From positions 1 to 54,346 of the forward strand of contig CAIVEH010000004.1 in the NCBI GenBank assembly GCA_903904855.1: 54,346 nt of DNA. Direction: 5' to 3'. Position numbers and translations under genes: made by a program. The DNA comes from an uncultured Bacteroidota bacterium (lineage in GTDB: Bacteria > Bacteroidota > Bacteroidia > Chitinophagales > Chitinophagaceae). Below are positions 6,298-44,845 of the stretch, one piece after another. Each line of letters begins with the position of its first letter. Positions within the stretch are counted from its first letter, which is position 1. The notes beneath the pieces are model-generated. The model was not told the origin of the DNA. It saw only the letters and a program-made list of their open reading frames with translations, and did no database searches.

Positions 6298-9200
6298 ATG
6301 AAAATAAAACATTTACTAATTTGTTTTGCATTTCTTGGGCTTGGATCATCAGGACATTTGAATGCTCAGGTAAAAATAATTGAAACTATAGCCGGTACAG
6401 GAACTGCAAGCTTAACCGGAGATGGAGGAGCTGCAGCAACAGCAACAATGAGCGCCAATTATCTGATGGCAATGGATGCTGCAGGCAATTTATATTTTGC
6501 TGATAATGGCAATGCCCGTGTCCGCAAAATTGCTGCTGGTACAGGTATTATTACAACGGTTGTGGGGGGTGGCGCCACATTAGGAGATGGAGGCCCTGCT
6601 ACTTCGGCTCAATTAGGTGCAGCAGGCGGCCCCAATCCGGGCGTGGTGGGCGTGGCAATAGATCCTGCTGCTACTATTCTGTATGTTGCCGATGGAACCA
6701 ATAACCGCATACGGGCAGTAAGTATGGCTACAGGTATTATTACTACTATTTGTGGCAATGGAACTGCAGGTTTTACCGGCGATGGTACACCAGCATCCGG
6801 AGCACAGGTCAGCGGGCCGCGTGGAATTGCGGTTGATGGCTCATTTAATGTTTACTTCTCCGATGCCGGTAATCAGAGAATAAGAATGATTTCTTCAGGT
6901 ACAGGAAATATTACAACAATAGCAGGAAACGGTACCGCAGGATATCTAGCTGACGGAGTTGTTGCTACCACAACGAGAATAAATAATGTAAGGGGATTGA
7001 CAGTTGATGGTTCTGGTAATGTATATATAGCAGACCAGACAAATAACCGGATAAGAATGATAGCTGCCGGCACAGATATTATTACTACCGTGGCTGGAAA
7101 CGGCACAGGAGGCTATGTAGGTGATGGGGTTGCTGCAACTACCACAAGAATTAACCTTCCCACGGATGTGAAATTTGATGCAGCAGGCAATATGTATATT
7201 GCTGATGTAAGTAATAACCGGATCAGGATGGTAAATACTTCGGGCATAATATCTACAATTGCAGGTGGCGGTACGGCTGGTTATGCCGGTGATGGTTCTG
7301 CCGCAACAGCTGCTGCGGTAAGGCTAAATGCACCTGTAGCAGTTGCTGTTGAGCCATCAGGACAGTATTTTTATATCGGAGACAGAACCAATAACAGGAT
7401 ACGCCAGGTAAGGCCCAATAGTACCCCATATTTCACTGGTGGTTCCACACAAACGCTGACAGTGTGCCAAAACTCGATAGGAGACAGCATCAATTCACTT
7501 ATGGTTGCGTATGACTCAGACAAGTTTCAGACACTTACGTGGAGTGTAAGCAATGCACCACTACATGGAACACTTGGAAGCGCGGCAACAGCAGCAACGA
7601 CTAGTGGCGCTGTTACACCTGTTGGGTTATATTATTCACCAACAACAGGATACAGTGGTGCTGACCAGTTTATTATGCAGGTAACAGATGGGTTTAATAC
7701 TTCCTTCGATACCATTAATGTTACAGTTAATCCATTCCCGTCTGTTGCTGCTATCACAGGGCCTGGCAGCGTTTGTATTACTACAACTATAACTCTTGCC
7801 GATGCTACACCAGGTGGTACATGGAGTGCTACAAATGGCAATGCAAGTGTTGCAGGAGGAACTGTTACCGGAGTAACTGCCGGTATAGATACCATTAATT
7901 ATGCTGTTACCAATACATGTGGTACAACTACTGTAACCGTCGCAGTAACTATAGTTTCAACGCCAAGCCCAATAACCGGGACATTCAATGTATGTGTTGG
8001 ACAGACAACTTTGCTGGGGGATGCCACGACAGGAGGTACCTGGACAAGCTCTGCTCCCGGCACTGGTTCAATAAATTCTAGTTCAGGTCTGGTTACAGGA
8101 GTAGGGCCAGGTAATACAACAATTACCTATTCGCTTGGCGGATCATGTTTTATTACACAGAATGTAACGGTTAATGCCAATCCTGCAGCTATTACGCCTC
8201 CTGGTGCTGTAACTGTATGCGTTGGCGCTACTACCTCGCTGGGAGATGTAACCGCAGGTGGTACCTGGAGCAGTGCTACTCCCGGAATTGCTACTGTGGG
8301 TACATCCGGAGTTGTAACAGGTATTTCACCAGGGGCAGTTAATATTTTATATACCTCTGTTGCCGGATGCTCTGTCACAAAATCAGTTACCGTTATGGTA
8401 GCACCAGCAGCTTTATCTCCTGCCAGCGCTGCAGTGTGCGTTGGCAATAATGTTACTTTTACTGAGAGCGTCGGTGGAGGAGTGTGGAGTAGTGTGGCTC
8501 CTGGAACAGCAAGTATTGCAGCAGGAGTAGTAACAGGCGTAGCGGCCGGCACAACTTCCATATCTTATACTTTAGGAACATGTGCTGTGGGTGCTTCGGT
8601 AACGGTTAACGGATCGCCAGCTGCAATTACTCCACCGGGAGCAGTGAGTATGTGCGTAGGCGCTACGGCTTCGCTGGGTGATGTTACACCGGGTGGTACA
8701 TGGAGTAGTGCCGCTGTAGGTATTGCCACTGTAGGTACCTCAGGTACAGTAACAGGTGTTGCTGCCGGAACAGTTAATATTTCTTATACCAATGTATCAG
8801 GATGTGCAGCTGTGAAATCGGTTACAGTTCTGGTCACCCCTGCTGCATTATCACCAACAAGCGCTACTGTTTGTACTGGGAATACCGTTGCATTTACAGA
8901 GTCAGTAGGTGGTGGCGTATGGAGTAGCACCAATGGTGCCGTTGCAAGTGTTTCGGCTGGATTGGTAACAGGACTTACAGTTGGGAATACCAATATTTCT
9001 TATACAATTGGGACATGTGCCGTTGGTGCACCTGTTACAGTCAACTTATCGCCAAATGCGGGGGTTATTACAGGTCCCGCAACACTCTGTACCGGTTCTC
9101 CTGTAACCTATACTGATGCATCCCCAGGAGGTGTATGGAGCAGCAGTAATCCGTCGGTAGCTACGGTAGGAACTTCTGGTACAGTTACCGGGCTTACAGT

Positions 9201-12072
9201 TGGATCGTTTACATTATCCTATGCAGTTTCCAATACATGCGGAACTGCAACTGCAACCAAAATAATTTCAGTAGGACTTGCACCAAGTCCAGGCACAATT
9301 ATAGGCGCTTCAACAGTATGCGCCGGAACCTATACCATATTGGTAGATACAACAGCAGGAGGTACATGGAGCGCATCAAATGGCAATGCTACTATTACCA
9401 GCACAGGGTTATTGACAGGGATAATACCCGGTATTGATACTATTAAATATTCGGTTACAAATGCCTGCGGCACTGTGTCAGCCTCTGATGTTGTAACTAT
9501 CGGACCATTGCTCAGCGCAGGTACCATTTCTGGTCCTTCATTTGTCTGCGTTGGTTCATCCATTACCCTGACTGATGCAACCGGGTTTGGCATATGGAGC
9601 GCCAGCAACTCATCAGCTACTTTAGCTGGCGGTATTGTAACTGGAGTTATCGCAGGTGTGGATACAATAAATTATACGATATCCGCCAGTTGCGGATCGG
9701 CTATAGCCACGCAGGTGGTAACGGTAGTACCCATACCTGATGCGGGTACTATAGTAGGCCCTGTGATTATGTGTGCAGGCTTTATAACTACTTATACCGA
9801 TGCAGCGCCAGGTGGCGTATGGGGAATCACCAATACCAGCGCCACAATTTCTGGTGGCGGTATTGTTACTGCCGTTTCTCCGGGAACAGATACTATAACT
9901 TATACAGTTAGTAATTCCTGCGGTACGGCAATTGCTTCATCAGCAATCTCAATAGGCCCTGCTATTACAGCAGGCACCATTTCGGGACCTGGTGCAGTAT
10001 GCGTAGGTTCGGCTATAGCACTTACTGATCCGGCGGCGGGTGGTGTATGGAGTGTGAGCAATTCCAATGCAACCATTATTGCAGGCATTGTAACCGGCGT
10101 ATCGGCAGGCATAGATACCGTTTATTATACCGTAACAGGTAGTTGCGGCACAGTAATGGCTTCGGCATCTATAGTGATTAATCCGTTGCCATCAGCTGGC
10201 ACTATTACCGGGCCAGCTACATTGTGTATTGGCACACCTGCCACTTATACCGATGCCACACCAGGCGGTACATGGTTTGTAAGCAACAGCCATGCAGGCA
10301 TAACCGCAGGCGGTCTGGCAACACCTTTATCAATTGGTACCGATACCATTTATTATTCTGTTTCGAATAGTTGTGGCACAGCTACAGCTATGGATGTTGT
10401 GAGCGTTCTTGGCGCGCTCTCAGCCGGAACTATAAGCGGACCGGGTGCAGTATGCATGGGCTCATCTGTAACATTGGCAGATGGTACTCCTGGCGGCACA
10501 TGGAGCGCCAGCAATGGCAATGCAACTGTGAGCGGAGGAGTAGTTACAGGTGTAACGGCAGGCACTGATATGATCTCTTATACGGTTTCCGGAAGTTGTG
10601 GTTCAGTATCAGCTACCAAATTAATTTCTATAGATGCAACACCATCAGCAGGCACTATAGCAGGGCCTTCAAATGTCTGTTTGGGGTCACCTGTTACGCT
10701 TACCGATGCAGCAACAGGCGGTGCATGGAGCGCCGCTAACACATCAGCAACAGTAAGTGTGGCAGGGGTGGTAACCGCTATCAGTCCCGGAACTGATACA
10801 ATCAGTTATACAGTTACTAATAGCTGCGGATCTGCAGCTGCAACCCAGGTAATTGCTGTAAGTACTTCATTGCCATCAGCAGGCGCCATCACCGGTCCAT
10901 CAAGTGTTTGTGCAGGATCCACCGTAACACTTGCAGAAGCTGTAACCGGCGGTGTATGGAACAGCACCAACGCTTATGCCACCGTATCCGGAGGCACAGT
11001 AACAGGTGTAACACCCGGTTTGGATACCATAACTTATACCGTAACCAATGCCTGCGGATCGGCCATGGCATCGGCACCGATAACTGTAGGAGCAGCCCTT
11101 GTTACCGGCACCATCAGCGGCCCGGCAGCAGTTTGTATCGGTTCAACTATTACTTTGACAGATGCAGCTCCTGGTGGCACATGGAGTAGCAGCAGTGCCA
11201 ATGCTACTGTTGCAGGTGGCGTGGTTACCGGTGTATCGGCTGGAACAGCAACTATCTCTTATACAGTTAGCGGCAGTTGCGGAACAGCCTCAGCTATATG
11301 GGATATAACAATAAGCGTAGCGCCTGGTGCTGGAACAATAACAGGTCCTACCGGAGTTTGTGCAGGTTCGTCTATAGTACTTACTGATGCAACTACAGGC
11401 GGCGCGTGGAGCGCCTCTAATGCAAGGGCTACAGTATCAGGTGGTGTTGTAACCGGTGTATTGGCTGGATTGGATACTATCAGGTATTCTGTGACCAATG
11501 CATGTGGAAGTGCAGTGGCAAGCTGGCCCATATCAGTGAATGGCATACCCAATGCAGGCAGTGTAAGTGGGGCTACCAGTGTTTGCCCTGGCGCTACAGC
11601 AGCCTTGGTACACAGCGCTTCAGGTGGTACCTGGAGCAGCAGCAACAGTGGCCTGGCCACTGTAAGCAGTGCCGGGGTGGTAACCGGGGTTGCATCAGGT
11701 GCAGTTACTATCAGTTATACCCTGAGCAATAGTTGTGGGCACCACAGCGCTACACATCCGATGACGGTTTTATCGGCAACATCTTGTGGTGGTACAGGTA
11801 CATTGGTAGGCGGTCCTGGCGCAAATACTGAAGATGAATTGAGTGTGGTGCCCAACCCCAACAATGGCGTATTTGTACTGAAACTTACATCTTCAATTGA
11901 GGAGCAGGTACATGTGGTTATTACCAACCTCATTGGCCAGAAGGTGAAAGAATTCAACACAGCAACAAATACGGTAACAGATGTGCAGATGGGCCAGGCA
12001 GCAGGTATATATATGCTCAATGCATCGACCGCCAGCGGAAGCCATGTAACCAAGGTAATTATTAACAGGTAA
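6298..12072 (+). CDS. Giant secreted protein: NHL propeller, 18 Ig-like modules, T9SS tail
   Basis: 1924 aa. A signal peptide (I-C-F-A-F-L-G-L-G, cleavage near L-N-A-Q) is followed by six NHL units at about residues 25-375, each with an I-A-G-x-G-T-A-G-x-x-G-D-G strand and a Y-I-A-D-x-x-N-N-R-I-R strand, the size of one six-bladed propeller. A cadherin/Ig-like domain follows at about 375-480. Then come 18 modules of about 75 residues at about 481-1831. Each has a V-C-x-G-x-x-x-x-L-x-D strand, a G-G-x-W-S-x-x-N core, G-x-V-T-G-V-x-x-G and an S-C-G, so each carries two cysteines likely to form an internal disulfide. The last 80 residues are a type A sorting domain. The array resembles BIG2-type bacterial Ig domains. 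A surface adhesion or matrix role is inference; no catalytic site was seen. Confidence 0.88.
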   Translation: MKIKHLLICFAFLGLGSSGHLNAQVKIIETIAGTGTASLTGDGGAAATATMSANYLMAMDAAGNLYFADNGNARVRKIAAGTGIITTVVGGGATLGDGGPATSAQLGAAGGPNPGVVGVAIDPAATILYVADGTNNRIRAVSMATGIITTICGNGTAGFTGDGTPASGAQVSGPRGIAVDGSFNVYFSDAGNQRIRMISSGTGNITTIAGNGTAGYLADGVVATTTRINNVRGLTVDGSGNVYIADQTNNRIRMIAAGTDIITTVAGNGTGGYVGDGVAATTTRINLPTDVKFDAAGNMYIADVSNNRIRMVNTSGIISTIAGGGTAGYAGDGSAATAAAVRLNAPVAVAVEPSGQYFYIGDRTNNRIRQVRPNSTPYFTGGSTQTLTVCQNSIGDSINSLMVAYDSDKFQTLTWSVSNAPLHGTLGSAATAATTSGAVTPVGLYYSPTTGYSGADQFIMQVTDGFNTSFDTINVTVNPFPSVAAITGPGSVCITTTITLADATPGGTWSATNGNASVAGGTVTGVTAGIDTINYAVTNTCGTTTVTVAVTIVSTPSPITGTFNVCVGQTTLLGDATTGGTWTSSAPGTGSINSSSGLVTGVGPGNTTITYSLGGSCFITQNVTVNANPAAITPPGAVTVCVGATTSLGDVTAGGTWSSATPGIATVGTSGVVTGISPGAVNILYTSVAGCSVTKSVTVMVAPAALSPASAAVCVGNNVTFTESVGGGVWSSVAPGTASIAAGVVTGVAAGTTSISYTLGTCAVGASVTVNGSPAAITPPGAVSMCVGATASLGDVTPGGTWSSAAVGIATVGTSGTVTGVAAGTVNISYTNVSGCAAVKSVTVLVTPAALSPTSATVCTGNTVAFTESVGGGVWSSTNGAVASVSAGLVTGLTVGNTNISYTIGTCAVGAPVTVNLSPNAGVITGPATLCTGSPVTYTDASPGGVWSSSNPSVATVGTSGTVTGLTVGSFTLSYAVSNTCGTATATKIISVGLAPSPGTIIGASTVCAGTYTILVDTTAGGTWSASNGNATITSTGLLTGIIPGIDTIKYSVTNACGTVSASDVVTIGPLLSAGTISGPSFVCVGSSITLTDATGFGIWSASNSSATLAGGIVTGVIAGVDTINYTISASCGSAIATQVVTVVPIPDAGTIVGPVIMCAGFITTYTDAAPGGVWGITNTSATISGGGIVTAVSPGTDTITYTVSNSCGTAIASSAISIGPAITAGTISGPGAVCVGSAIALTDPAAGGVWSVSNSNATIIAGIVTGVSAGIDTVYYTVTGSCGTVMASASIVINPLPSAGTITGPATLCIGTPATYTDATPGGTWFVSNSHAGITAGGLATPLSIGTDTIYYSVSNSCGTATAMDVVSVLGALSAGTISGPGAVCMGSSVTLADGTPGGTWSASNGNATVSGGVVTGVTAGTDMISYTVSGSCGSVSATKLISIDATPSAGTIAGPSNVCLGSPVTLTDAATGGAWSAANTSATVSVAGVVTAISPGTDTISYTVTNSCGSAAATQVIAVSTSLPSAGAITGPSSVCAGSTVTLAEAVTGGVWNSTNAYATVSGGTVTGVTPGLDTITYTVTNACGSAMASAPITVGAALVTGTISGPAAVCIGSTITLTDAAPGGTWSSSSANATVAGGVVTGVSAGTATISYTVSGSCGTASAIWDITISVAPGAGTITGPTGVCAGSSIVLTDATTGGAWSASNARATVSGGVVTGVLAGLDTIRYSVTNACGSAVASWPISVNGIPNAGSVSGATSVCPGATAALVHSASGGTWSSSNSGLATVSSAGVVTGVASGAVTISYTLSNSCGHHSATHPMTVLSATSCGGTGTLVGGPGANTEDELSVVPNPNNGVFVLKLTSSIEEQVHVVITNLIGQKVKEFNTATNTVTDVQMGQAAGIYMLNASTASGSHVTKVIINR

Positions 12073-12095
12073 AGAAAAGCAATAGAATCTTACAG

Positions 12096-12274: not shown

Positions 12275-15200
12275 ATGAATAATACCTTTAGGCTTTTCTG
12301 CTGCGTTATTGTTGCGGCATTATTTTCTATCCGCTTATTTGCCGGCCCTGATGTAACTAATACACCACAACAAAAAGCGCCGCTCTCTTTTATTGAGAAC
12401 AAGGGACAGGTAAGAGACCAGTACCGCAATGCACGGCAGGATATCCAGTTTCAGTTGAAAGCCGCAGGGGGGTTAAGTATTTTTATTGGTGATGGTGCTA
12501 TACATTACCAGTTCAGCAAGGCTGATAAAAAAATCAAAAAACCATCTAAAGAGGATATGATGAAACTTGGCTTTGTGCCGGAGCAGACCACCTTTACTAT
12601 GGACCGTTTGGATGTGGAACTGGTAGGAGCCAATAAAAATGCCCAGGTAATTACGGAACAGAAGCAGGATTATTATGAAAATTATTTTACAGACTGGAGT
12701 GGTGAAAAAGGCACCACCGTATCAGCTTACAACAAAATAACCTACAAAAACATTTACCCGAATATAGACTGGGTGATTTATACAAAAAACGGCCAACTGG
12801 AGCATGAATTTGTGGTGCACCAGGGAGGAAAAGTGAGTGATATACAATTGAAATACGGAGGCGCAAAAGACCTGAAAATAAATGCCAATGGTAGCCTGAC
12901 AGCAGGTACACCACAGGGAACAATTACTGAGAAAGCTCCGGATACTTATCAGAAGGACGGGAAAAAAGTGACTAGCGCGTTTAAACTGAATGGTAATGTT
13001 TTGGGATATTATACCGGAGATTATTCAGGAGAATTAGTTATTGATCCGACATTGTCATGGGGTACTTATTTTGGTGGTAGTCAGGATGAAACAGGTGCAG
13101 GTACAGCAGCGGATGGTTCTGGAAATGCCTATGTTACAGGAAGTACTACAAGTACTTCCGGAATTGCGACCTCCGGAGCTTTTCAGACAACTTACGGAGG
13201 TAGTGTTGATGATGCTTATTTAGCCAAATTCAATAGCTCTGGAGTTATTCAATGGGCTACTTATTATGGTGGCAATCAGGATGATGAAGCTTTTGGTGTT
13301 GCAACCGATCCTTCAGGTAATGTATATATGACAGGTTTTACAGGCAGTTCAACCGGCATAGCTACATCCGGATCTTATCAGAGCAGTTGGACTGCAGGTT
13401 CAGATGCATTTCTTGTAAAATTCAATAGTGCAGGAGCAAGGCAATGGGGAACCTATTATGGAGGCGGCTTTACAGATTATGCGTGGGGAGTTGGTACAGA
13501 TAATTCCGGAAATGTATTCATAGTAGGTGAAACGAACAGCTTATCAGGCATTGCATCTCCGGGAAGTTACCAGACACTGTTAAACACCATGGGCAGTGGC
13601 AGTGGCAGCGATGGATTCCTGGTGAAGTTTAACAGTGCAGGAGTTCGGCAATGGGCCACTTATTTCGGTGGGTTCTCTGATGATTTTGCGAATGGTGTAG
13701 CAGCAGATGGCTCAGGGAATGTATATATAGCCGGTAATACATCAAGCAATTCGGGTGTAGCCTCTTCCGGAGCATATCAAACCACTGAAGGTAGTACGAA
13801 TGATGCATTTTTAGCCAAATTTAACAGTGGCGGCACAATACAATGGAGTACATATTACGGTGGTCCGGCTGATGATTTCGGAACCGCCGTAACCGCGGAT
13901 GCGTCAGGCAATGTATATCTTTGTGGCACCACGAAAAGTCCCTCAGCAATTGCAAGCCCGGGAGCCTATCAGACATTATTTTCAGGAGGGCAGGAAGCGT
14001 ATCTTGCCAAATTCAACACTTCTGGTTCGCGATTATGGGCAACCTATTATGGTGGTGGCTCTGAGTCGGGCGCGGGTGTATTAACTGATGCGGGAAAAAA
14101 TGTTTTTATTTGTGGCGCAACTAGTTCTGGTTCAGGAGTAGCTACCTCAGGCGCCTATCAATTGACGTTTGGTGGAGTCCAGGATGCTTATCTTTCTGAA
14201 TTTGACAGTACGGGAGCAATAAAATATGCTACTTATTATGGTGGCCCTGGTAGTGATGTAGGTAGTTCTATAGCAACTGATGGATCAGGAAATTTTTTTA
14301 TATCAGGTAAAACAACAAGTACTGCCGGCATAGCAACTTCTGGTGCATACCAGACTACTTATGCGGGTGCAGGGTCACTTTCAGAGGGTGATGCTTTTTT
14401 GGTGAAATTCAGCTTCACATGTACATATCCTTTTGTTGCCCCGGTAACCGGTCCCACAACCGTTTGCCCCAGCAATACAATTACTCTGGCAGATGCCACA
14501 TCAGGTGGAACTTGGAGCAGCAGCAACAATTCTATTGCAACTGTAGGCACTTCGGGCGTGGTAACTGGTGTTGCTGCCGGTAATGTAATAATATCCTATT
14601 CAGTAAGTAATAGTTGTGGTACAACAAATTCATTGGCTTTGATTACCGTAGGAAGTGAAATCATCACTACCATTGCCGGAAACGGCACAGCAGGCTATAC
14701 AGGCAACGGAGGCCCTGCAACTGGCGCTGAAATTAATTTGCCTGCTGGTGTCACACAGGACGGCTCAGGGAATACTTATATTGCAGACTGGAACAATAAT
14801 GTAATACGCAAAATAAACACAGCGGGTATTATAACAACATTTGCCGGCACAGGGGCAACGGGATATACCGGTGATGGCGGACCAGCAACTTCTGCTACTT
14901 TCCACAACCCGGTAGCCCTTATTTTCAATTCTGCGGGGGAGCTGATCATAGCTGATTATAACAATAATGTTGTAAGAAAGATTAGTACATCAGGAATCAT
15001 AACTACTATAGCAGGAAATGGTATTGGCGGATTTTCCTCAGATGGAATACCTGCCACAAGTTCTGAGTTGCATTCGCCGGAAGGCCTTGCACTCGATGCT
15101 GCCGGAAATTTATATATAGCAGATGGCAATAACTCCCGTGTCAGGCAAGTAGATGTGTCTGGTATAATACATACTTATGCAGGAACAGGCGGATATACAT

Positions 15201-21200: not shown

Positions 21201-21286
21201 TACAGATGGGCGAGGCAGCTGGCATTTACCTGCTCAATGCCACTACATCCACTGGCATCCATGTAGCTAAGGTGATTATTAACTGA
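12275..21286 (+). CDS. Giant secreted protein: DUF7948, SBBP and two NHL propellers, 20 Ig-like modules, T9SS tail
   Basis: 3003 aa from ATG 12275; a TTG nine bases earlier is less likely because the lysine-poor M-N-N-T signal peptide begins at the ATG. Order: a DUF7948-like head (about 34-254, starting P-L-S-F-I-E-N-K-G-Q-V); seven SBBP units (about 262-716, each beginning W-x-T-Y-x-G-G); Ig module 1; six NHL units (about 794-1136); Ig modules 2-3; six more NHL units (about 1287-1626); Ig modules 4-20 (about 1627-2912); and a type A sorting domain. Blade numbers suggest one seven-bladed and two six-bladed propellers strung along an Ig stalk. The distal Ig array runs parallel to that of the 1924-aa neighbour. 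Function is unknown; secretion through T9SS to the cell surface is strongly implied. Confidence 0.88.
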   Translation: MNNTFRLFCCVIVAALFSIRLFAGPDVTNTPQQKAPLSFIENKGQVRDQYRNARQDIQFQLKAAGGLSIFIGDGAIHYQFSKADKKIKKPSKEDMMKLGFVPEQTTFTMDRLDVELVGANKNAQVITEQKQDYYENYFTDWSGEKGTTVSAYNKITYKNIYPNIDWVIYTKNGQLEHEFVVHQGGKVSDIQLKYGGAKDLKINANGSLTAGTPQGTITEKAPDTYQKDGKKVTSAFKLNGNVLGYYTGDYSGELVIDPTLSWGTYFGGSQDETGAGTAADGSGNAYVTGSTTSTSGIATSGAFQTTYGGSVDDAYLAKFNSSGVIQWATYYGGNQDDEAFGVATDPSGNVYMTGFTGSSTGIATSGSYQSSWTAGSDAFLVKFNSAGARQWGTYYGGGFTDYAWGVGTDNSGNVFIVGETNSLSGIASPGSYQTLLNTMGSGSGSDGFLVKFNSAGVRQWATYFGGFSDDFANGVAADGSGNVYIAGNTSSNSGVASSGAYQTTEGSTNDAFLAKFNSGGTIQWSTYYGGPADDFGTAVTADASGNVYLCGTTKSPSAIASPGAYQTLFSGGQEAYLAKFNTSGSRLWATYYGGGSESGAGVLTDAGKNVFICGATSSGSGVATSGAYQLTFGGVQDAYLSEFDSTGAIKYATYYGGPGSDVGSSIATDGSGNFFISGKTTSTAGIATSGAYQTTYAGAGSLSEGDAFLVKFSFTCTYPFVAPVTGPTTVCPSNTITLADATSGGTWSSSNNSIATVGTSGVVTGVAAGNVIISYSVSNSCGTTNSLALITVGSEIITTIAGNGTAGYTGNGGPATGAEINLPAGVTQDGSGNTYIADWNNNVIRKINTAGIITTFAGTGATGYTGDGGPATSATFHNPVALIFNSAGELIIADYNNNVVRKISTSGIITTIAGNGIGGFSSDGIPATSSELHSPEGLALDAAGNLYIADGNNSRVRQVDVSGIIHTYAGTGGYTFGGDGGPATAAQMMNPFGLYMDQSGNLYICDQLSNRIRVVNSSGVISTVAGSGAFGGGTGTYSGDGAAATAATMNDPTGVYCDQAGNIYIADRGNSRVRFVNKSTGLISTIAGTGTAGFSGDGGSATAAKLNADAFIYLDANANIYISDYNNNRIRKIAPVGTSIQASSATICQGVPVLFTDSTSGGTWTSSNPAVAYVGTAIGEVTGISAGTATISYAVNFSCGLTYVLQPVTVNSFSAGTLSGPSIVCPGNTITLTDATGGGTWSSSNPAAATVSGGVVTGVAAGNTTISYTITNGCGTLAARQQVIVGVPQISTFAGTGTAGSTGDGGQATAATFNATHSIWSDASGNTYIADVNNHKIRIVNPAGIVSTFAGTGVAGSSGDGFPATNATIQSIFSIVTDATGNLYFADNVSNRVRMINTSGIISTIAGTGTAGSLGDGGPATAAQLSGPGGLSFDQVGNLFIGDGNNNKVRKISPSGIITTYAGTGVLGSSGDGSLAILATLSHPNYLHCDGSGNLYVADNGNSKIRKIDAFGVITTVAGTGTSGALGDGGPATAAQLSFPGGVALDGAGNIYIAGDGNQKIRIVYASSGIINTYAGTGTAGYSGDGGAPATAKLNTPVDVYFDNNGNLFIADNANNAIRKIAPVNASVTALAGPNTVCQGSTITLTDITSGGTWSSSAPAIATVGTSGIVTGVTAGVANISYSVVFSCGTISVSQSVTVNALPAVPGPITGPTNVCAGASVTLNDATAGGNWTSTIPVVATIGSTSGSLTGLTAGVTVVSYTISTSCGSNSVFRNDTVFSAPGAITGVLAACVGLTSPLGNSVAGGTWTSSNPAVASVGSSSGIVTGVTPGTVTITYNTGGACSSTASFTVNANPAAITPPGAVTMCVGATASLGDVTAGGTWSSAVPATATVGTSGIVTGVAAGTVNILYTTAAGCSATKSVTVLPTPTALAPTSATVCTGNTVAFTETIGGGIWSSTNGAVASVSAGLVTGLTAGTVNISYTIGTCAVGAPVTVNLSPAAGVITGPAILCTGTPVTYTDASPGGVWSSSNPAIATVSVTGLVTGITPGVFTLSYAVTNTCGTATATKVITVSPSPGAGTIIGTTLVCAGAFTTLVDTTSGGTWSASNTNATISGTGILVGVIPGIDTISYTVANTCGSASTTKIVTIGLTLTAGSISGPSVVCAGSSIALSETITGGTWSSSNSSATVSVAGLLTGVTGGTDTINYTVTSGCGSVVATHVVTVNPIPVSGSITGPTLLCAGNSATYTDPASGGVWSVTNANATISGVGLLNAISAGNDTVQYTVSNSCGTSVATAYVTIGPAISAGSISGPASVCVGFTITLTDASPGGVWSSSNTTADVLGGMVTGLIPGIDTISYTVTSTCGSVSTSAVVTVNPSTIASPITGPSGLCMGTTATYTDATIGGTWSLTNGNAIVTGGGLVTPVSIGADTLKYTVTGTCGTSVASQVINISLMPVAGTISGTSNICVGSTSTLTDAIPGGTWSASNGNATISSGVVTAVSPGLDTISYTVTSSCGSAVATYVIDINTTPSPGVITGPTSVCIGTLITLADTAIGGAWSASNPDATISLSGVVTSIAPGTDTISYTVTNACGSFGTSHIITISTTATAGSITGPSIVCAGASITLTDAVSGGIWASSNGNATVSTGGVVTGVTPGADTITYVVTNACGSATASYAITVGAALTAGTISGSSAVCVGSTITLTDPATGGIWSSSSTNATVSGGIVTGVAAGTATISYTVTGSCGTITATHALTINVAPAAGTISGPTGVCAGAVITLSDAATGGVWSASNSRATVSGGTVTGVIAGLDTIRYSVSNGCGTAIASWPISVNSAPSAGTIGGAASVCPAASVTLTHTATGGTWSSSNTGIATVSGAGTVTGVASGAVTISYTLTNSCGSGRATHAMTVLSPASCTGLVVSGPGSGQGEELVVAPNPNKGIFTMNLDSDLNEEVQVTITNVIGQKVKEFTTTTNKVTDIQMGEAAGIYLLNATTSTGIHVAKVIIN

Positions 21287-21309
21287 TAAGACAATCAATG
21301 AACTGAAGG

Positions 21310-21334
21310 GGCTGCTCAATAGAGTAGCCTTTTT
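21310..21334 (+). terminator. Rho-independent terminator
   Basis: GGCTGCTC (21310-21317), loop AATA and GAGTAGCC (21322-21329) with one G-T pair, then TTTTT. It sits directly after the 3003-aa gene. Confidence 0.8.
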
Positions 21335-21366
21335 GGTTTATGACAGTATAACTGCTTTATGCTGAA

Positions 21367-21422
21367 TTTGGTTAATTGTATTCATTTGCATAAATTTATA
21401 CTACAAACTAAAACCCACTTTT
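21367..21422 (+). promoter_or_regulatory. Conserved upstream region, copy 1
   Basis: From TTTG 21367 to the ATG is 56 bases. Over this stretch the sequence closely matches the region upstream of the 25137 gene: TATTCATTTGCATAA, then TTTATA.TAC, AAAACCC and TTTT before the ATG, all at the same distances. Promoter and leader are the likely content, but I cannot assign the -7 element with certainty. Confidence 0.55.
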
Positions 21423-24400
21423 ATGAAATTTACCCACAAACAGCTTTTGCTTGTTCTGTTAGCAGCAATTTATTCCACTAATTTATTGGCCGATCCTGTT
21501 ATTCCCGTTTCAGGACAAAAGCCAGCCCCACTTTGCTTCATTGAAAATAAAGGACAGGTAACAGATCAGGATCGTAAGCAAAGGTCCGATATTCAGTTCA
21601 GTATTAAAGCTGCTCCCGGCCTGGCAATATTTATTGGCAATGGCGCAATACATTACCAGTTCAGCAAAGCAGAGACATCTCCCCAGCCCTTCCCGATGAA
21701 AAATCGGGATAGACTTCCAAAGGAGATGGGGCCGCTACCTGAGAATCAGGTGCCTGAAGCAACAATTTTTATAATGGACCGTATGGATGTAGAGCTAATA
21801 GGCGCAAACAAAAATGCACAGGTTATCACTGAACAAAAGCAGGATTATTACGAAAATTATTTTACCGACCGAACCGGTGATAAAAGTGCTACTGCATTTG
21901 CATTCAGCAGAATTACCTATAAAAACATTTACCCGAATATAGACTGGGTACTCTACACCACAAACGGGCAGCTGGAGCATGAATTTGTGATACGCCAGGG
22001 AGGAAAAGTGAGCGATATAAAATTGAAATACGGAGGAGCAACTGAATTGAAATTAAATGAGGATGGCAGCTTTACTGCTAAAACTCCTCAGGGAGTGATT
22101 AAAGAACATGCGCCAGATGCTTACCAGAACGATGGTAAAAAAGTGAGCAGTGGTTTTGTTTTGAATAATAATGTGCTTAGCTATTCAATGGGTGGTTTTA
22201 ATGGCGATCTTATAATAGACCCTACACTTGTCTGGGCTACTTATTATGGTGGCAGTAACCAGCAGTATGGAAACAGCGTAGCAACAGATGTATCAGGTAA
22301 TGTATACCTGGCTGGATATACTGGCAGTTTAGCGGGTATAGCTACAACCGGGGCATATCAAATTGTTTTTGGAGGCCATTATGATGCTTTTCTGGCTAAA
22401 TTCAGTAGTTCAGGGGCAATTCAATGGGCAACTTATTATGGTGGAAGTGGTAATGATATAGCACAGGCAGTAGCAACAAATATTTCCGGAGATATTTATT
22501 TGTGTGGATTAACCTCCAGCTCGTCAGGTATTGCCACTTCAGGAGTTTATCAACCAGGTTATGGCGGAAGTCAAGATGCATTTCTGGTTAAATTTAGTAA
22601 TTCTGGAGCGATTCAATGGGGTACTTATTTCGGAGGATATGAGACTGACGGGGCTTACAGAGTCAGTGCAGATTCATATGGAAATGTATTTATTGCAGGT
22701 GCCACACTAAGCCCTACTTCTATTGCTACTGCTGGCGCCTTTCAGACTACTATAGGAGGGATGGATGATGCCTTTGTTGCGAAATTCAGTAGTTCGGGCT
22801 CAATGCTATGGGCCACTTATTATGGTGGAAGCGTGGATGATTATGGTATCAGTTTAGCTGTTGACGGTATTGGTAATGTTTTTCTTTGTGGTGGTACAAA
22901 TAGTTCCTCAGGCATTGCTACACCTGGCTCCTATCAGAGTATATTTGGTGGTAGTGACGATGGTTTTATGGTGAAATTCAATGGCTCAGGAACCCGTGAG
23001 TGGGCTACCTATTTTGGTGGAAGCGGTGGTGCTCATGTAACTGCTATAGCTACTGATAACTCAGGGAATGTTTTTTTGACCGGAGAAACTGGAAGTACTT
23101 CTGCAATAGCTACTCCTGGCGCTTACCAGGCCACTTTCGGAGGCGGAACGTGGGATGCCTATCTCGCAAAATTCAACAATTCCGGGGTTATTCAGTGGGC
23201 TACTTATTATGGTGGCAGTGGTCTTGATATAGCCTATAATCTGGCAACTGATAGTGCTGGAAATCCTTTTATTTCCGGGATGACAACAAGTTCATCAGCC
23301 ATAGCAACTGTTGGGGCTTACCAAACGGTTATTAGTGGTGGCGAGGATGCTTTTTTAGCTAAATTTAATACGTCAGGTGCAATTATTTGGGCTTCCTATT
23401 ATGGAGGTAATATGTCAACTGAAGGCTTAGGAATAGCGGCAGGTACATCAGGTATAGTCTACTTGTGCGGTTCGACCAACAGCACTTCTTCTATAGCTAC
23501 ACCTGGGTCTTACCAATCCACTTTTTCTGGTGATTCAGGTGATGCTTATTTAGCAAAATTCAATTTTAATTGTGTTGCTCCTCCATCTGTTTTACCCATA
23601 TCTGGCCCATCATCAGTTTGTGTTTCTGATTCAATTTCATTAATTGATGCTACACCCGGCGGGATATGGAGTTGCAGCAATACTCATGCGAGTGTTTCAG
23701 GTGGTACAGTTTCAGGAATATCAGCCGGAATTGATACTATTTCATACATTATTACAAATAGTTGCGGCACCAATGTCACAATAAAAATAGTAACAATAAA
23801 TACAGTGCCTTCAGTAGGAACAATTACCGGCGTAGGAATAGTGTGCCCTGGCGATTCAATAATATGTACTGATGCTACTCCTGGAGGTGTTTGGAGTGCA
23901 GGCAATACACATGCTACGGTTACTGGTGGAATCATTACAGGAGTAACAGCAGGAATTGACACCATTTTTTATACTGTCACAAATATCTGTGGATCAAATT
24001 CAGCCTCAAAGATAATTACAGTAAATCCAATGCCATCGGCTGGTGTTATTATGGGGTCAACCACAGTATGTCTGGGAGACTTCATTTTATTGACAGATGC
24101 TTCCCCAGGTGGTATATGGAGCAGCAGTAATCCTGCAATTGCCACAATATCTGGTGGCTTGGCTATAGGAGTTTCTTTAGGTACAGATACAATATCCTAT
24201 ACAGTTACAAACAGTTGTGGTACTGCATCAGCCCATAAAGCTATTACTGTAATTACAACACCTTATGCAGGTACAATAGTTGGTTCAGGAACAATATGCC
24301 CCGGCGATTCAATTACTTTAACAGATACAGTTTCAGGAGGCATATGGTCCAGCAGCAATGTATATGCTACAGTTACAGGCGGTGTTACTATTGGCGTTTC

Positions 24401-24995
24401 ATCTGGCATAGATACAATTTATTATACAGTTACCAATGCCTGTGGCAGCGGCTCAGCTTTTGGTACTGTAACTATAAACTCATTACCATCAGCAGGCGCC
24501 ATCAGCGGGCCCGAAACTATTTGTCCGGGGGATTCAGTATTATTTACCGATGATACATCGGGCGGTATCTGGAGCAGCAGTGCGCCATCTGTTGCTTTAG
24601 CAGGTAGCGGCACTGGAATAATAATTGGTATCACCACCGGTACAGTAATTATCAGTTATACAGTTACCAATTCCTGTGGCAGCACAGTAGTTACATTTCC
24701 AATAGCTGTTGATAGTTCATCATGCAATACAAAAGTTAAGGGAATCAGGGAAAATGATTTTAGACTATTTATTTCCCCCAACCCCAACTCCGGCGCATTC
24801 ACCATGAACCTTATCTCCTCACTCGATGAATCAGTTCACATAACCATCACCAATGTAATAGGCCAGAAAATAAAAGAATTTACCACAACTACAAATAAGG
24901 TTACCGATATACAGATGGGCGAGGCAGCTGGCATTTACCTGCTCAATGCCACAACATCCACTGGCAGCCATGTGGCTAAGATGGTGATTAATTAA
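21423..24995 (+). CDS. Secreted DUF7948 / SBBP propeller / five Ig-like modules / T9SS protein
   Basis: 1190 aa. A signal peptide (L-L-L-V-L-L-A-A-I-Y, cleavage near L-L-A-D) is followed by a DUF7948-like head (about 35-266, P-L-C-F-I-E-N-K-G-Q-V). Seven SBBP units follow at about 268-716, each opening W-x-T-Y-Y-G-G-S and carrying a G-N-V-Y-L-x-G strand, which fits one seven-bladed propeller. Then come five two-cysteine Ig-like modules (about 723-1099) and a type A sorting domain. It is a short version of the 3003-aa neighbour without NHL propellers. The head contains a proline- and arginine-rich linker at about 85-105 encoded by a nested palindrome (21676-21728), absent from both paralogues. 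The tail DNA contains 59 bases identical to the 3003-aa gene. Confidence 0.88.
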   Translation: MKFTHKQLLLVLLAAIYSTNLLADPVIPVSGQKPAPLCFIENKGQVTDQDRKQRSDIQFSIKAAPGLAIFIGNGAIHYQFSKAETSPQPFPMKNRDRLPKEMGPLPENQVPEATIFIMDRMDVELIGANKNAQVITEQKQDYYENYFTDRTGDKSATAFAFSRITYKNIYPNIDWVLYTTNGQLEHEFVIRQGGKVSDIKLKYGGATELKLNEDGSFTAKTPQGVIKEHAPDAYQNDGKKVSSGFVLNNNVLSYSMGGFNGDLIIDPTLVWATYYGGSNQQYGNSVATDVSGNVYLAGYTGSLAGIATTGAYQIVFGGHYDAFLAKFSSSGAIQWATYYGGSGNDIAQAVATNISGDIYLCGLTSSSSGIATSGVYQPGYGGSQDAFLVKFSNSGAIQWGTYFGGYETDGAYRVSADSYGNVFIAGATLSPTSIATAGAFQTTIGGMDDAFVAKFSSSGSMLWATYYGGSVDDYGISLAVDGIGNVFLCGGTNSSSGIATPGSYQSIFGGSDDGFMVKFNGSGTREWATYFGGSGGAHVTAIATDNSGNVFLTGETGSTSAIATPGAYQATFGGGTWDAYLAKFNNSGVIQWATYYGGSGLDIAYNLATDSAGNPFISGMTTSSSAIATVGAYQTVISGGEDAFLAKFNTSGAIIWASYYGGNMSTEGLGIAAGTSGIVYLCGSTNSTSSIATPGSYQSTFSGDSGDAYLAKFNFNCVAPPSVLPISGPSSVCVSDSISLIDATPGGIWSCSNTHASVSGGTVSGISAGIDTISYIITNSCGTNVTIKIVTINTVPSVGTITGVGIVCPGDSIICTDATPGGVWSAGNTHATVTGGIITGVTAGIDTIFYTVTNICGSNSASKIITVNPMPSAGVIMGSTTVCLGDFILLTDASPGGIWSSSNPAIATISGGLAIGVSLGTDTISYTVTNSCGTASAHKAITVITTPYAGTIVGSGTICPGDSITLTDTVSGGIWSSSNVYATVTGGVTIGVSSGIDTIYYTVTNACGSGSAFGTVTINSLPSAGAISGPETICPGDSVLFTDDTSGGIWSSSAPSVALAGSGTGIIIGITTGTVIISYTVTNSCGSTVVTFPIAVDSSSCNTKVKGIRENDFRLFISPNPNSGAFTMNLISSLDESVHITITNVIGQKIKEFTTTTNKVTDIQMGEAAGIYLLNATTSTGSHVAKMVIN
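21676..21728. repeat. Nested palindromic element inside a reading frame
   Basis: Outer arms CATCTCC (21676-21682) and GGAGATG (21722-21728) enclose inner arms TCCCGAT (21691-21697) and ATCGGGA (21703-21709). It encodes a linker unlike that of the two paralogous proteins at the same position, so it may be an in-frame insertion of a small dispersed palindrome. Confidence 0.5.
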
Positions 24996-25016
24996 TAGTT
25001 ATTGAATAGTATTTAT

Positions 25017-25046
25017 AGAGGGGCTGCAATAATATGCGGCCCCTCT
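25017..25046 (+). terminator. Hairpin terminator
   Basis: AGAGGGGCTGC (25017-25027) pairs with GCGGCCCCTCT (25036-25046), with one G-T pair and an 8-base loop. A weak T-rich tail follows. It lies 22 bases after the stop of the 1190-aa gene. Confidence 0.75.
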
Positions 25047-25080
25047 GCGTTTTCTGGCATGGTTATTGCAGCATTGTGTA

Positions 25081-25136
25081 TTTGGATAAGTATATTCATT
25101 TGCATAACTTTATATTACTTGTAAAAACCCGTTTTT
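25081..25136 (+). promoter_or_regulatory. Conserved upstream region, copy 2
   Basis: This is the counterpart of 21367-21422, with TTTG again exactly 56 bases before the ATG, and TATTCATTTGCATAA and AAAACCC blocks conserved. The shared leader suggests that the two paralogues are expressed together. Confidence 0.55.
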
Positions 25137-28100
25137 ATGAAGAATACCCTTAAAAAATTCTTACTGGTCATTTTATCTGCTTTTTATTATGGTCAGTTAA
25201 GTGCTGATCCTATTACGCCTATTCTGGCTCAAAAAACAGCCCCGCTCTCGTTTATCGAAAACAAAGGACAGGTTACCGACCAGGACAGAAAGGCCCGGCC
25301 CGACATTCAATATGCCATCAAAGCCGCTCCCGGACTCGCTATTTTTATTGGTAACGGTTCAATCCATTATCAGTTCAGCAAGAATAATATTCCTGCCGGC
25401 GGCAATCAGGAACCTCAAAATCCCGGTTTTAAACTCCCTGACTCCAAGCCATCATCTTTTACTATGGACCGCATGGATGTGGAGCTGGTTGGCGCCAATA
25501 AAAATGCAAAAGTTATTGCCGAGGGAAAACTGGATTATTCTGAAAGCTATTTTACCGGCCAGACCGGCCCGGCAGACAAAAAGGTATCGGCTTACAGCAG
25601 GATAACCTATAAAGATATTTACCCCAATATTGACTGGGTGCTGTATATCAGCAATGGCGTACTGGAACATGAATTTGTTGTAAGGCAGGGTGGTAAAGTA
25701 AGCGATATAAAACTGAAATATGGCGGTGCCAACGATCTTAAAATAAATGAAGATGGCAGCATTACCACCACAACCCCGCAGGGAACTATTACAGAAAAGA
25801 CGCCAAGTACTTACCAAAAGGACGGCAAAAAGGTAAGTAGTAGTTATATTCTGAAAGGAAATGTACTCAGTTATGAAACCGGAATGTATACTGGCGACCT
25901 GGTAATTGACCCAACCCTTACCTGGGCTACCTATTATGGTGGCAGCAATACAGACCAGGGAAACAGTGTGGCTACCGATGCCTCAGCCAATGTATACATT
26001 GCAGGAAATACCAGCAGCGCAACTACCATTGCAACCAGTGGCGCCTACCATGTTGTGCTTAGTGGCACTACCGATGCTTTTGTGGCAAAACTGAATAGTT
26101 ATGGTGTTATGCAGTGGTCTACCTATTATGGCGGCAGTGCAGTAGATGAGGCATTCGGAGTTGCTGCCGATGCTGCAGGCAATCTGTATCTCACCGGTTA
26201 TACCGGCAGCACAACCGGTATAGCAACACCCGGCGCTTATCAGGTTGTTTATGGTGGCGGTACCTACGATGTTTTTCTGGCAAAATTCAGCAGCACAGGC
26301 GCTCTTATATGGTCCACTTATTATGGCGGATCTGGCAGGGATATTGCTTCTGGTATAGCTGCCGATGCTGCGGGTAATGTTTATATTACCGGTACCACAG
26401 CCAGTACCTCCGGCATAGCTACCCCCGGCGCTCACCAGACCGTTTGGGGAGGTGGATCGGTGGGTGATGCATTTCTGGCTAAATTCAGCAGCACAGGTGC
26501 TATTCAGTGGGCCACCTATTTCGGGGGTATCAATAACGACAACGGAATGGGCCTGGCTACAGATGCCTTCGGGTCTGTATTTTTTTCAGGCATTACCTAT
26601 AGCCCTTCGGGTATAGCCTCTTTAACTGCATTCCAACCTGCGATTGGTGGGGTTGATGATGCATTTCTGGCAAAATTTAATGGCGCTGGCGTGCTTTTAT
26701 GGTCAACCTATTTTGGCGGCAGCGGAAATGATGATGGTTATGCTGTGGCAACCGACCCTTCAGGCAGGGTATACATGACCGGCTGGACGAACAGCACTAC
26801 AGCAATAGCTACTGCAGGTGCCTATCAAACCACCCTGGGCGGCGGCACCTCGGATGCTTTCCTGGCCAAATTCGATAGTTCCGGCTACGTCATCTGGGCA
26901 ACCTATTTCGGTGGCACCTCGCCCGATTACGGCTACAGCCTGACCACTATTGGCGCCAACAATGTATTTATGACCGGCAGAACTTCGAGCCTTGCATCAG
27001 TTGCTACTTCTGGCGCTATTCAGCCTGCATTGGGTGGCGGCGATGATGCTTACTTAGCGCAATTTGATAATACAGGAAGCCTTACATGGGCAAGCTACTA
27101 TGGTGGCACCGGAACTGAATATGGAACCGGCATAGCCAGCGATGATTCCGGGAATGTCTATATATCCGGCTATACCAGCAGCACAGCAGGTATTAGTGCT
27201 TATGGAGCTTACCAGGGGATATTTGGCGGTGGTACCTACGATGCTTTCCTTACTAAGTATAATTTTTTCTGTGTCATCCTTCCGGTCGTTCCGCCTATCG
27301 TGGGCTCCCCCATAGTTTGCCCCGGCGAAACCTTAATGGTAGGCGATGCAAACCCCGGTGGCACCTGGACGTGCAGTACACCTCATGCCGCGGTAACCGG
27401 ATGGGTAATAACAGGTGTGTCTCCTGGTTTGGATACTGTCTATTATACGGTAACCAACACTTGTGGCGCAACAACGGTTTCTATGCCAATAACCGTTAAC
27501 CCCCTGCCTTATGCAGGAACTATAACCGGAATTGATTCAGTATGTACAGGAAGCTCCATAATATTATCCGATATTACTCCGGGTGGTATTTGGGGTAGTA
27601 TTAATCCGCATGCCACAGTATCGGGTGGTATCACAACAGGTGTATCATCCGGCAGCGATACCATTACCTACTCTGTTACCAATAGCTGTGGCACTGCTGT
27701 TGCAACAATGCCCATTACAGTTAATACCACGCCGCTTGTAAGTATTATTTTCGGAGGAAATGTTACACTTTGCCCCGGAACTTCAAGAACTTTATCAGAT
27801 CCTACCCCGGGTGGTGTTTGGAGTGTCGGCAATCCAGATGTTACAATATCTGGTTCCACCATCACAGGAGTTATTACGGGAACTGATACTGTATTTTACA
27901 CGGTTACCAATAGCTGCGGACCAGCATCGGTATATACAACTGTAACAGTAGTACCAACACCGGTAATAGGTGCCATTACTGGCCCATCTGTTGTTTGTCC
28001 TGGCGATACGATTACACTTGCAGATACTACCACAGGAGGGTATTGGAGTACTAGTTCTCTGTTCACTAACGTATTCTCGTATACAGCAGGTAAAGTAGTT

Positions 28101-28715
28101 GGAGTTTCTGCCGGAGTTTCTGTAATTACTTATAATGTTTATACCACTATCTGCGGCTCCGTTTCTGTATATAAAACAATTACTGTTCCGGGAATACCGG
28201 TTGTAGCACCTGTCACAGGCAGGGATTCTATTTGCCTCGGCGATTCTGTTATTTTGCTCGATGATACTTTGGGTGGTAAATGGACCAGCAGCGCCAGCGC
28301 CATTGTCCGGGCCGACAGCATTACCGGTAAAATAAAAGGTATTGCTACCGGAACTGCAACAATAACGTATACAGTTACCAATATTTGCGGAGTTTCCGCC
28401 AGCGTAACCTATACAGTGAATGTGCTCGCACACAGTTATTGTCATACGCTTGTGCCGGGCATTGCACCTGTATCTGATGAAGCGCTTTCAGTTGCTCCTA
28501 ACCCTAATAACGGATCCTTTACAATAAACCTTACTTCCACAGTCAATGAAGAAGTGATGGTAACTATCACCAATTTGCTGGGCCAGAAAGTCAAAGAGTT
28601 TACCACAACAACCAATAAGGTTACCGACATACAGCTGGGCGAAGCAACAGGTATCTATCTGCTCAATGCAACTACTGCAAATGGCAGGCATGTAGCTAAG
28701 GTGATTGTCAATTGA
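25137..28715 (+). CDS. Secreted DUF7948 / SBBP propeller / five Ig-like modules / T9SS protein
   Basis: 1192 aa and the same architecture as the gene immediately upstream. It has a lysine-rich signal peptide, a DUF7948-like head (about 35-261), seven SBBP units (about 262-711), five Ig-like modules with paired cysteines (about 718-1098) and a type A sorting domain whose core is I-T-N-L-L-G-Q-K-V-K-E-F. The fourth Ig module lacks the usual N-S-C-G and has T-I-C-G. The coding DNA is more GC-rich in third positions than its neighbour, so the duplication is not very recent although the protein layout is conserved. It ends 42 bases from a convergent gene without an obvious strong terminator. Function is unknown. 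Confidence 0.88.
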   Translation: MKNTLKKFLLVILSAFYYGQLSADPITPILAQKTAPLSFIENKGQVTDQDRKARPDIQYAIKAAPGLAIFIGNGSIHYQFSKNNIPAGGNQEPQNPGFKLPDSKPSSFTMDRMDVELVGANKNAKVIAEGKLDYSESYFTGQTGPADKKVSAYSRITYKDIYPNIDWVLYISNGVLEHEFVVRQGGKVSDIKLKYGGANDLKINEDGSITTTTPQGTITEKTPSTYQKDGKKVSSSYILKGNVLSYETGMYTGDLVIDPTLTWATYYGGSNTDQGNSVATDASANVYIAGNTSSATTIATSGAYHVVLSGTTDAFVAKLNSYGVMQWSTYYGGSAVDEAFGVAADAAGNLYLTGYTGSTTGIATPGAYQVVYGGGTYDVFLAKFSSTGALIWSTYYGGSGRDIASGIAADAAGNVYITGTTASTSGIATPGAHQTVWGGGSVGDAFLAKFSSTGAIQWATYFGGINNDNGMGLATDAFGSVFFSGITYSPSGIASLTAFQPAIGGVDDAFLAKFNGAGVLLWSTYFGGSGNDDGYAVATDPSGRVYMTGWTNSTTAIATAGAYQTTLGGGTSDAFLAKFDSSGYVIWATYFGGTSPDYGYSLTTIGANNVFMTGRTSSLASVATSGAIQPALGGGDDAYLAQFDNTGSLTWASYYGGTGTEYGTGIASDDSGNVYISGYTSSTAGISAYGAYQGIFGGGTYDAFLTKYNFFCVILPVVPPIVGSPIVCPGETLMVGDANPGGTWTCSTPHAAVTGWVITGVSPGLDTVYYTVTNTCGATTVSMPITVNPLPYAGTITGIDSVCTGSSIILSDITPGGIWGSINPHATVSGGITTGVSSGSDTITYSVTNSCGTAVATMPITVNTTPLVSIIFGGNVTLCPGTSRTLSDPTPGGVWSVGNPDVTISGSTITGVITGTDTVFYTVTNSCGPASVYTTVTVVPTPVIGAITGPSVVCPGDTITLADTTTGGYWSTSSLFTNVFSYTAGKVVGVSAGVSVITYNVYTTICGSVSVYKTITVPGIPVVAPVTGRDSICLGDSVILLDDTLGGKWTSSASAIVRADSITGKIKGIATGTATITYTVTNICGVSASVTYTVNVLAHSYCHTLVPGIAPVSDEALSVAPNPNNGSFTINLTSTVNEEVMVTITNLLGQKVKEFTTTTNKVTDIQLGEATGIYLLNATTANGRHVAKVIVN

Positions 28716-44801: not shown

Positions 44802-44845
44802 CCACCGCTTTTAACAAAGGAAAGTTAATTTTCAATTTTATTCCT

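Follow-up and report, generated by a model that had tools for sequence, protein, structure and literature searches.

Giant proteins with propellers and immunoglobulin-like stalks in a Chitinophagaceae bacterium: architecture, recurrence and discordant divergence

Introduction

Four consecutive genes on a contig of an uncultured member of the Chitinophagaceae (Bacteroidota; assembly GCA_903904855.1, contig CAIVEH010000004.1) encode very large proteins made of propellers and immunoglobulin (Ig)-like modules. The whole stretch of 54,346 nucleotides that was analysed is called the window here, and the four genes lie on its plus strand at positions 6298..28715. According to the translated reading frames they encode 1924, 3003, 1190 and 1192 amino acids. 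An earlier note, made from the sequence alone, described them as four giant proteins combining propellers with Ig arrays, and the computational follow-up reported here supports this description. Moreover, the propellers have characteristic blade numbers, the architecture recurs in relatives, and in part of the pairs of related proteins the propellers and the Ig stalks have diverged to discordant degrees. The new finding is that propellers and stalks often have different histories.

The four genes and their modules

Gene 1 (6298..12072) starts with a probable signal peptide, recognised by eye only, which is followed by an NHL block of six units (6376..7419, residues 27-374; unit hidden Markov model (HMM) and TEN_NHL match), an additional domain (7423..7716, residues ~376-473), 18 Ig-like modules (7717..11751, residues 474-1818; unit HMM and Big_2) and a sorting tail of the type IX secretion system (T9SS) at 11851..12063 (Pfam and NCBIfam). 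The domain between the NHL block and the Ig modules had been overlooked in the earlier note. It has a match to tandem-95 (NF012211) at residues 436-480, far under the cut-off (18.3 versus 90 bits), and to call it cadherin-like is a guess. Gene 2 (12275..21286) encodes the 3003-residue protein when counted from the ATG at 12275; the list of open reading frames places the start at a TTG at 12266. It comprises DUF7948 (12389..13051, residues 39-259; Pfam), an SBBP block of seven units (13058..14422, residues 262-716), one Ig module (14423..14644, residues 717-790), a first NHL propeller of six units (14660..15685, residues 796-1137), Ig modules 2-3 (15686..16129), a second NHL propeller of six units (16142..17149, residues 1290-1625), 17 further Ig modules (17150..20974, residues 1626-2900) and a T9SS tail (21068..21280; Pfam and NCBIfam). 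The SBBP, NHL and Ig modules of gene 2 were assigned by unit HMM, and for both NHL propellers also by predicted fold. Genes 3 and 4 share a simpler layout. Gene 3 (21423..24995) consists of DUF7948 (21537-22226), seven SBBP units (22233-23564), five Ig modules (23565-24692) and a T9SS tail (24771-24989), and the same parts of gene 4 (25137..28715) lie at 25251-25916, 25923-27266, 27267-28400 and 28497-28709.

All of the numbers given in the earlier note were returned by a renewed motif count and by the HMMs, namely seven units in each of the three SBBP blocks, six units in the NHL block of gene 1 and in both NHL blocks of gene 2, and 18, 20, 5 and 5 Ig modules in genes 1 to 4. The unit HMMs were trained on these very units, which score 49-99 bits by construction; independent support comes from Pfam. 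The proposal that the 3003-residue protein is an Ig stalk with three propellers agrees with its layout of SBBP7-Ig1-NHL6-Ig2-NHL6-Ig17. The genes also carry a trace of tandem duplication, which is seen in the likeness of two gene junctions: the junction at 21088..21667 of the plus strand, which leads from the last part of gene 2 across the spacer into gene 3, and the corresponding junction of genes 3 and 4 at 24797-25381 show 74% identity over ~595 bp.

Curated family models recognise most of these modules. In the Pfam scan, SBBP (PF06739) reached 130.1, 96.6 and 133.8 bits in genes 2-4 (cut-off 20.5; E 7.7e-28 to 1.8e-39), DUF7948 (PF25778) reached 182.8, 171.5 and 173.1 bits in the same genes (cut-off 27), and TEN_NHL (PF25021; NHL itself is PF01436) reached 74.8 and 203.8 bits in genes 1 and 2 (cut-off 27.1; E 8.3e-21 and 5.1e-60). 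Big_2 exceeds its curated cut-off in genes 1-2. For genes 3 and 4, every Ig family stays below the Pfam cut-off, Ig_NUP210_16th scoring 18.5 and 20.6 bits against 27, and their five Ig modules each were therefore assigned by likeness to the modules of genes 1-2. The T9SS tails noticed earlier on all four proteins are borne out by Por_Secre_tail, which lies above its Pfam cut-off in 4/4 proteins, and by the NCBIfam T9SS type A C-terminal sorting domain (39.5, 33.5, 34.6 and 40.5 bits in genes 1-4; cut-off 23). The genome of the window contains at least 150 such tails among 306 candidates scored.

Predicted folds and related structures

The suggestion that the repeats close into seven- and six-bladed propellers is consistent with AlphaFold2 models. 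The model of the gene 4 SBBP block has 28 predicted strands (7x4) and superposes on the seven-bladed propeller of CylK, which is its top structural match. The models of both gene 2 NHL blocks have 24 predicted strands each (6x4), and their top matches are six-bladed NHL propellers. Thus, the SBBP block of gene 4 is predicted to be a closed seven-bladed ring and the NHL blocks of gene 2 to be closed six-bladed rings; for the SBBP blocks of genes 2-3 and the NHL block of gene 1, this assignment follows from the unit count. For the DUF7948 part of gene 4 (residues 1-263), no sequence relative was found in the PDB up to E 10.

CylK (PDB 7ron, 7roo, 7fh6-8) is the nearest solved relative of the SBBP blocks, and the match spans the propeller only. 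CylK is an alkylating enzyme with a Ca2+-binding beta-roll domain ahead of the propeller and Ca2+ at every blade junction, and its residues Asp440 and Tyr473 are named as functional (PMC8916777). This relationship lends some weight to the idea of catalytic propellers that would act on varied substrates in the manner of CylK or virginiamycin lyase. However, a phmmer alignment read by eye places Asn and Asp of gene 4 at the positions of Asp440 and Tyr473, and the N-terminal domain of CylK, from which Arg105 derives, falls outside the match. CylK-type chemistry was rejected for gene 4 on the basis of this alignment. The argument counts against CylK chemistry only and leaves other catalysis unaffected. 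We regard an enzymatic role in general as very unlikely.

Several other proteins resemble the four proteins in part. Bacterial teneurin-like protein (PDB 9ifo, 9pt5) shares the NHL domain. Teneurin and its bacterial counterpart combine the NHL domain with a YD-shell and an FN-plug. By contrast, the four proteins end in a T9SS tail, and among their Pfam matches up to E 0.01 there is no family of RHS/YD repeats. The archaeal surface-layer protein 1l0q, sixth in the Foldseek results for the SBBP model, combines a YVTN propeller with PKD domains. It is like the window proteins in having a propeller and Ig-like modules within one surface protein, and it differs from them in the propeller and Ig families used. 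GhpA, the grappling-hook protein of Aureispira, has a role in predation and is exported by the T9SS. The repeats of this giant protein (PDB 9flp and others) weakly match gene 4 (E 2.7e-4, 8 stretches, best at 849-1047), and the likeness was seen in the Ig part only.

Blade numbers and recurrence of the architecture

The gene 4 query alone retrieved at least 6042 proteins at E <= 0.001 among 7998 candidates scored. Three protein searches were made, each listing 120 proteins including the window's own, and units were counted in the results of the first two. This sample comprises 240 proteins, the four of the window and 236 relatives; P0123, which is identical to gene 2, had been dropped beforehand. 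The earlier note had held variable unit counts in close homologues to be incompatible with its reading. The number of units is a multiple of seven in 138/145 SBBP blocks (7 in 136, 14 in 2) and a multiple of six in 176/202 NHL blocks (6 in 156, 12 in 18, 18 in 1 and 42 in 1), figures that are favoured by the choice of relatives by similarity to queries with seven and six units. The Ig runs have many values, ranging from 1 to 62. Among stretches chosen by DUF7948 only, 9/9 NHL blocks have six units and 10/53 SBBP blocks have seven; the other 43 are only partly detected and uninformative, as the SBBP HMM picks up part of the blades in distant genomes and in DUF7948 proteins of the kind encoded on contig C136 (see below), and many stretches are cut.

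The seven SBBP exceptions (of 145 blocks) are P0018 with six units and P0023 with four, which are either true exceptions or assembly collapses, P0021, P0097 and P0115, whose odd blocks sit at the protein end, and P0192, in which one block divided by a weak blade was counted as two. Of the 26 NHL exceptions (among 202 blocks), those of P0030, P0119 and P0134 and one of the blocks in P0204 are terminal, and the other 22 belong to P0138 (1), P0177 (12), P0193 (4), P0204 (1) and P0237 (4). With a looser threshold some of them become 6, 12 or 18, and counts of 11, 17, 3 and 2 persist. A fixed blade number is already known for both propeller types (PMC8916777, PMC13018210), for which reason it was rejected as the novelty here; blade amplification in propellers is the subject of a further article (PMC3797127).

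A search for the layout of DUF7948, SBBP, Ig and NHL across genomes, as recommended in the earlier note, revealed that it recurs. Seven SBBP and six NHL units occur together in 15/240 proteins, gene 2 included; the carriers include P0124, with a full-length identity of 75%, and P0126, with 55%. Five genes of the same genus also combine both blocks (two in G002 and one each in G009, G016 and G019). Because the architecture recurs in relatives, it represents a family. In the 115 proteins that have propellers and a run of at least three Ig modules, all propellers are N-terminal to the longest Ig run in 89 cases, on both sides in 25 and C-terminal in one.

The cluster of four genes was rejected as a conserved unit. 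At the locus L009, which carries an orthologue of gene 2, the following genes encode 243-463 amino acids and are devoid of such modules, and the upstream side is cut by the contig end. Likewise, the neighbours of eight same-genus giants with DUF7948 and seven SBBP units mostly lack the modules, another Ig/SBBP gene being near in 3/8 (L061, L062 and L064).

Relatives with these domains occur in various other contexts. A further neighbourhood of propeller genes (L025:1435-16387) contains two genes with seven SBBP units, another in which only isolated SBBP units occur, and a gene of 2722 amino acids with four blocks of six NHL units. The window's genome (G000) encodes further DUF7948 proteins of about 1200 and 1267 amino acids (C136:11037 and C257:33284), and DUF7948 frames of similar length are present in many same-genus genomes. 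This genome also has 280 TEN_NHL repeat matches, which amount to a large stock of NHL proteins; the matches listed lie on 48 contigs, many of them in frames of 450-650 amino acids. DUF7948 scored above its cut-off in the control genomes of Bacillus subtilis and Methanosarcina acetivorans, and the domain thus extends beyond the Bacteroidota. P0088 and P0155 are recorded under eukaryotic sources (Sphagnum jensenii and a EukProt entry) and are probably bacterial contamination.

Discordant divergence of propellers and stalks

An all-against-all comparison of 324 proteins yielded 47 pairs that share a stretch of 250 residues or more at >= 70% identity, and module profiles were obtained for 33 of them. 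In several pairs, a poorly conserved propeller stands on a nearly identical stalk. For instance, P0208 and P0218 share 36 Ig modules at 99% and the NHL propeller at 48%, and P0064 and P0087 share the Ig part at 99% and the SBBP block at 67%. In other pairs a single propeller is affected: P0291 and P0304 are 60% identical in NHL-2, 93% in NHL-1 and 96% in the Ig modules, and P0269 and P0292 are 62% identical in NHL-1 and 96% in NHL-2. P0134 and P0153 differ in one six-unit NHL block (68%), one that is missing and a two-unit piece at the start (25%), and their four other blocks are 99-100% identical. The nearest relatives of propellers and stalks also disagree. The P0218 propeller is closest to that of P0156 (68%) and not to that of P0208 (48%), although P0208 shares the Ig array at 99%; similarly, P0128 (59%) is a nearer relative of the gene 2 SBBP block than P0124 (53%), the orthologue, is.

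All 47 pairs were included in a control in which chunks of 4-5 Ig modules, a propeller-like length, were compared as well. At a median Ig identity of at least 80% (31/47 pairs), 18/41 aligned propellers fall short of the stalk by more than 15 points, and a further 14 are missing or unaligned. The same shortfall is seen in 8/119 Ig chunks, all of them the first of their protein except for a single second one. With a median of at least 90% (15/47 pairs), the figures are 7/22 propellers plus five missing versus 4/57 Ig chunks.

It is conceivable that such pairs are assembly artefacts, in which short-read assemblers joined wrong copies of a repeat and thereby produced false head swaps. Metagenomes are the source of many relatives, NHL repeats abound, as the 280 TEN_NHL matches of the window's genome illustrate, and P0208 and P0218 both have a longest contig of 65,140 bases. 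However, the discordance recurs in several unrelated pairs, and it is also found within G147, a 99%-complete genome of the same genus with about 40 contigs, where three head-to-tail genes with the layout DUF7948-SBBP7-Ig27 lie on one contig of 243,987 bases. The propellers of this triplet are 45-69% identical at the DNA level in windows of 40 codons, which is too different for confusion inside the propellers. We therefore strongly doubt this explanation.

The G147 triplet was found by a genus-level search at the default threshold; with P0230 as the query and E <= 1e-200, no match was obtained in 119 genomes of the order. In all three comparisons of its copies, the synonymous divergence (dS) is 0.23-0.27 in Ig modules 6-27 and 0.16-0.31 in the tails, and it rises to 1.70-2.08 in the SBBP propellers, which are 47-51% identical as proteins. 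That the propellers merely change faster at the protein level was rejected since dS is raised too, and as synonymous and replacement sites are raised together, relaxed constraint alone is insufficient for the propellers. At the first blade, the DNA identity of copies 1 and 3 falls from 100% to 42% over a distance of 16 codons. Where Ig 1 begins, that of copies 2 and 3 climbs over about 32 codons from about 50% to more than 90%. In the window, genes 2-4 are 68-69% identical among themselves in DUF7948, 52-54% in SBBP and 60-70% in the tails, and they may be an older version of a G147-like tandem set.

For tandem copies such as these, another process has to be weighed, in which gene conversion keeps the Ig arrays and tails of paralogues alike and the propellers, being spared, stay old. 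The G147 stalks are a patchwork of regions with 100% and with about 80% identity, a pattern expected from gene conversion, and the dS of Ig 1-5 is 0.09 between copies 2 and 3, a likeness that copy 1 does not share. The orthologues of gene 2 speak against this process. P0124 and L009, which are from different assemblies, are 92.7% identical overall; they are near-identical in DUF7948, SBBP, most Ig modules and the tail, and diverge in NHL 1 and in a part of NHL 2. In 46/60 windows of 50 residues they are 94-100% identical, whereas the seven windows at 801-1150 (NHL 1) reach 46-78%, the four at 1301-1500 reach 76-84%, and those starting at 1151, 1551 and 1601 reach 92, 92 and 84%. The two NHL blocks are 64% and 85% identical and contain 127 and 51 of the 224 mismatch columns. 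An old propeller enclosed by near-identical modules is not what conversion between paralogues readily produces. Moreover, between gene 2 and L009 NHL 1 is younger than the modules around it: dS is 0.56 in NHL 1, 1.68 and 1.85 in the flanking Ig modules and 0.96-2.15 in all other modules. NHL 1 of gene 2 is 91% identical in L009 and 64% in P0124. The SBBP block of gene 2 is 53% and 52% identical in P0124 and L009, against 64-91% for all other modules, NHL 1 included (Ig parts 81-89%, NHL 2 82% and 78%, DUF7948 70% and 71%). Judged from these alignments, exchange of the propeller appears to be the better fit for L009 and P0124, and conversion of the stalk with a spared head would fit the tandem copies equally well. 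As a general account, we consider stalk conversion rather unlikely.

Proposed exchangeable propeller heads

Taken together, the best reading is that the four proteins are surface adhesins or receptors with exchangeable propeller heads on an Ig stalk, which we hold to be about as likely as not. As the T9SS tail suggests, the type IX secretion system would export the proteins to the outer surface, and the tail at the C-terminus would act as the export and anchoring signal. The Ig array would be a spacer that raises the N-terminal part off the cell, and the one to three closed propellers, seven-bladed SBBP or six-bladed NHL, would be the binding heads. Ligand binding by the propellers and spacing by the stalks are proposed because of the known use of such folds, the N-terminal position of the propellers (89/115) and the site of variation. 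Lineages would retain most of the stalk and the tail and have their propellers exchanged, deleted or added, and one stalk could thus acquire different specificities. Recombination in the flanking modules may move the propellers. The more specific proposal that propeller cassettes diversify by exchange through homologous DUF7948 and Ig flanks, with NHL fed by a large genomic stock and with tandem copies and sister lineages showing different heads on the same stalk, is tentative and somewhat improbable at present.

The four proteins might instead have a structural role in a surface layer or matrix, with the propellers as lattice contacts, by analogy with archaeal surface proteins that combine YVTN propellers and PKD domains. 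The place of 1l0q among the structural matches and the 150 or more T9SS tails of the genome are compatible with such a role. However, a lattice should constrain its contacts, yet the propellers vary between near-identical stalks, and we judge a lattice function quite unlikely.

Several observations weigh against exchangeable heads. In G147, the first five Ig modules of copy 1 are nearly as old as the propeller in comparison with the other copies (dS 1.41-1.46), copy 1 rejoining them only at about residue 1130-1140, after Ig 5, and dS is also raised in DUF7948 (0.53-1.57). Only two sharp edges were seen at domain boundaries, the 5' one between copies 1 and 3 and the 3' one between copies 2 and 3, the latter pair having no sharp 5' edge. 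The difference between L009 and P0124 in NHL 2 lies mainly in the first part, and the unit of change is thus not always a whole propeller. Marked discordance is absent from 9/33 profiled pairs (P0075/P0077, P0253/P0256, P0280/P0305, P0029/P0039, P0296/P0310, P0063/P0105, P0173/P0225, P0244/P0251 and P0004/P0005), and because the relatives were clustered at 90% identity, pairs with some difference are favoured, irrespective of its place in the protein. In the control, Ig chunks with less than 80% coverage were excluded and uncounted and chunks were compared with their own median; no probability is attached to it because pairs share proteins. A donor for the discordant NHL versions was not found among the 324 proteins, the best other match being 57-71%. 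Matches to SBBP are few in the window's genome and mostly lie in the window's three genes, so that an SBBP donor pool is not evident, which also favours conversion of the stalks. Finally, the ratio of replacement to synonymous divergence (dN/dS) of 0.20-0.26 in SBBP and 0.08 in NHL comparisons indicates no averaged positive selection.

A literature search of titles and abstract starts, covering few subscription journals, retrieved no description of this architecture or of an exchange of its propellers. Within the same scope, no paper named DUF7948, and a single paper named the SBBP repeat.

Other genes in the window

Genes for a multihaem cytochrome c, a molybdopterin/4Fe-4S protein and NrfD lie in a row at 44780-53818, which we take to be, probably, an alternative complex III cluster. 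On the minus strand at 343-2149, a gene for a di-haem MauG-type peroxidase adjoins an MbnP-family gene.

Implications

If the heads are exchanged largely as units, the specificity of these surface proteins would be testable one folded domain at a time, and the L009/P0124 pair and the G147 triplet would represent natural experiments. Furthermore, if this is true, the closed ring fold, which rarely occurs with other blade numbers, would limit what recombination leaves behind.

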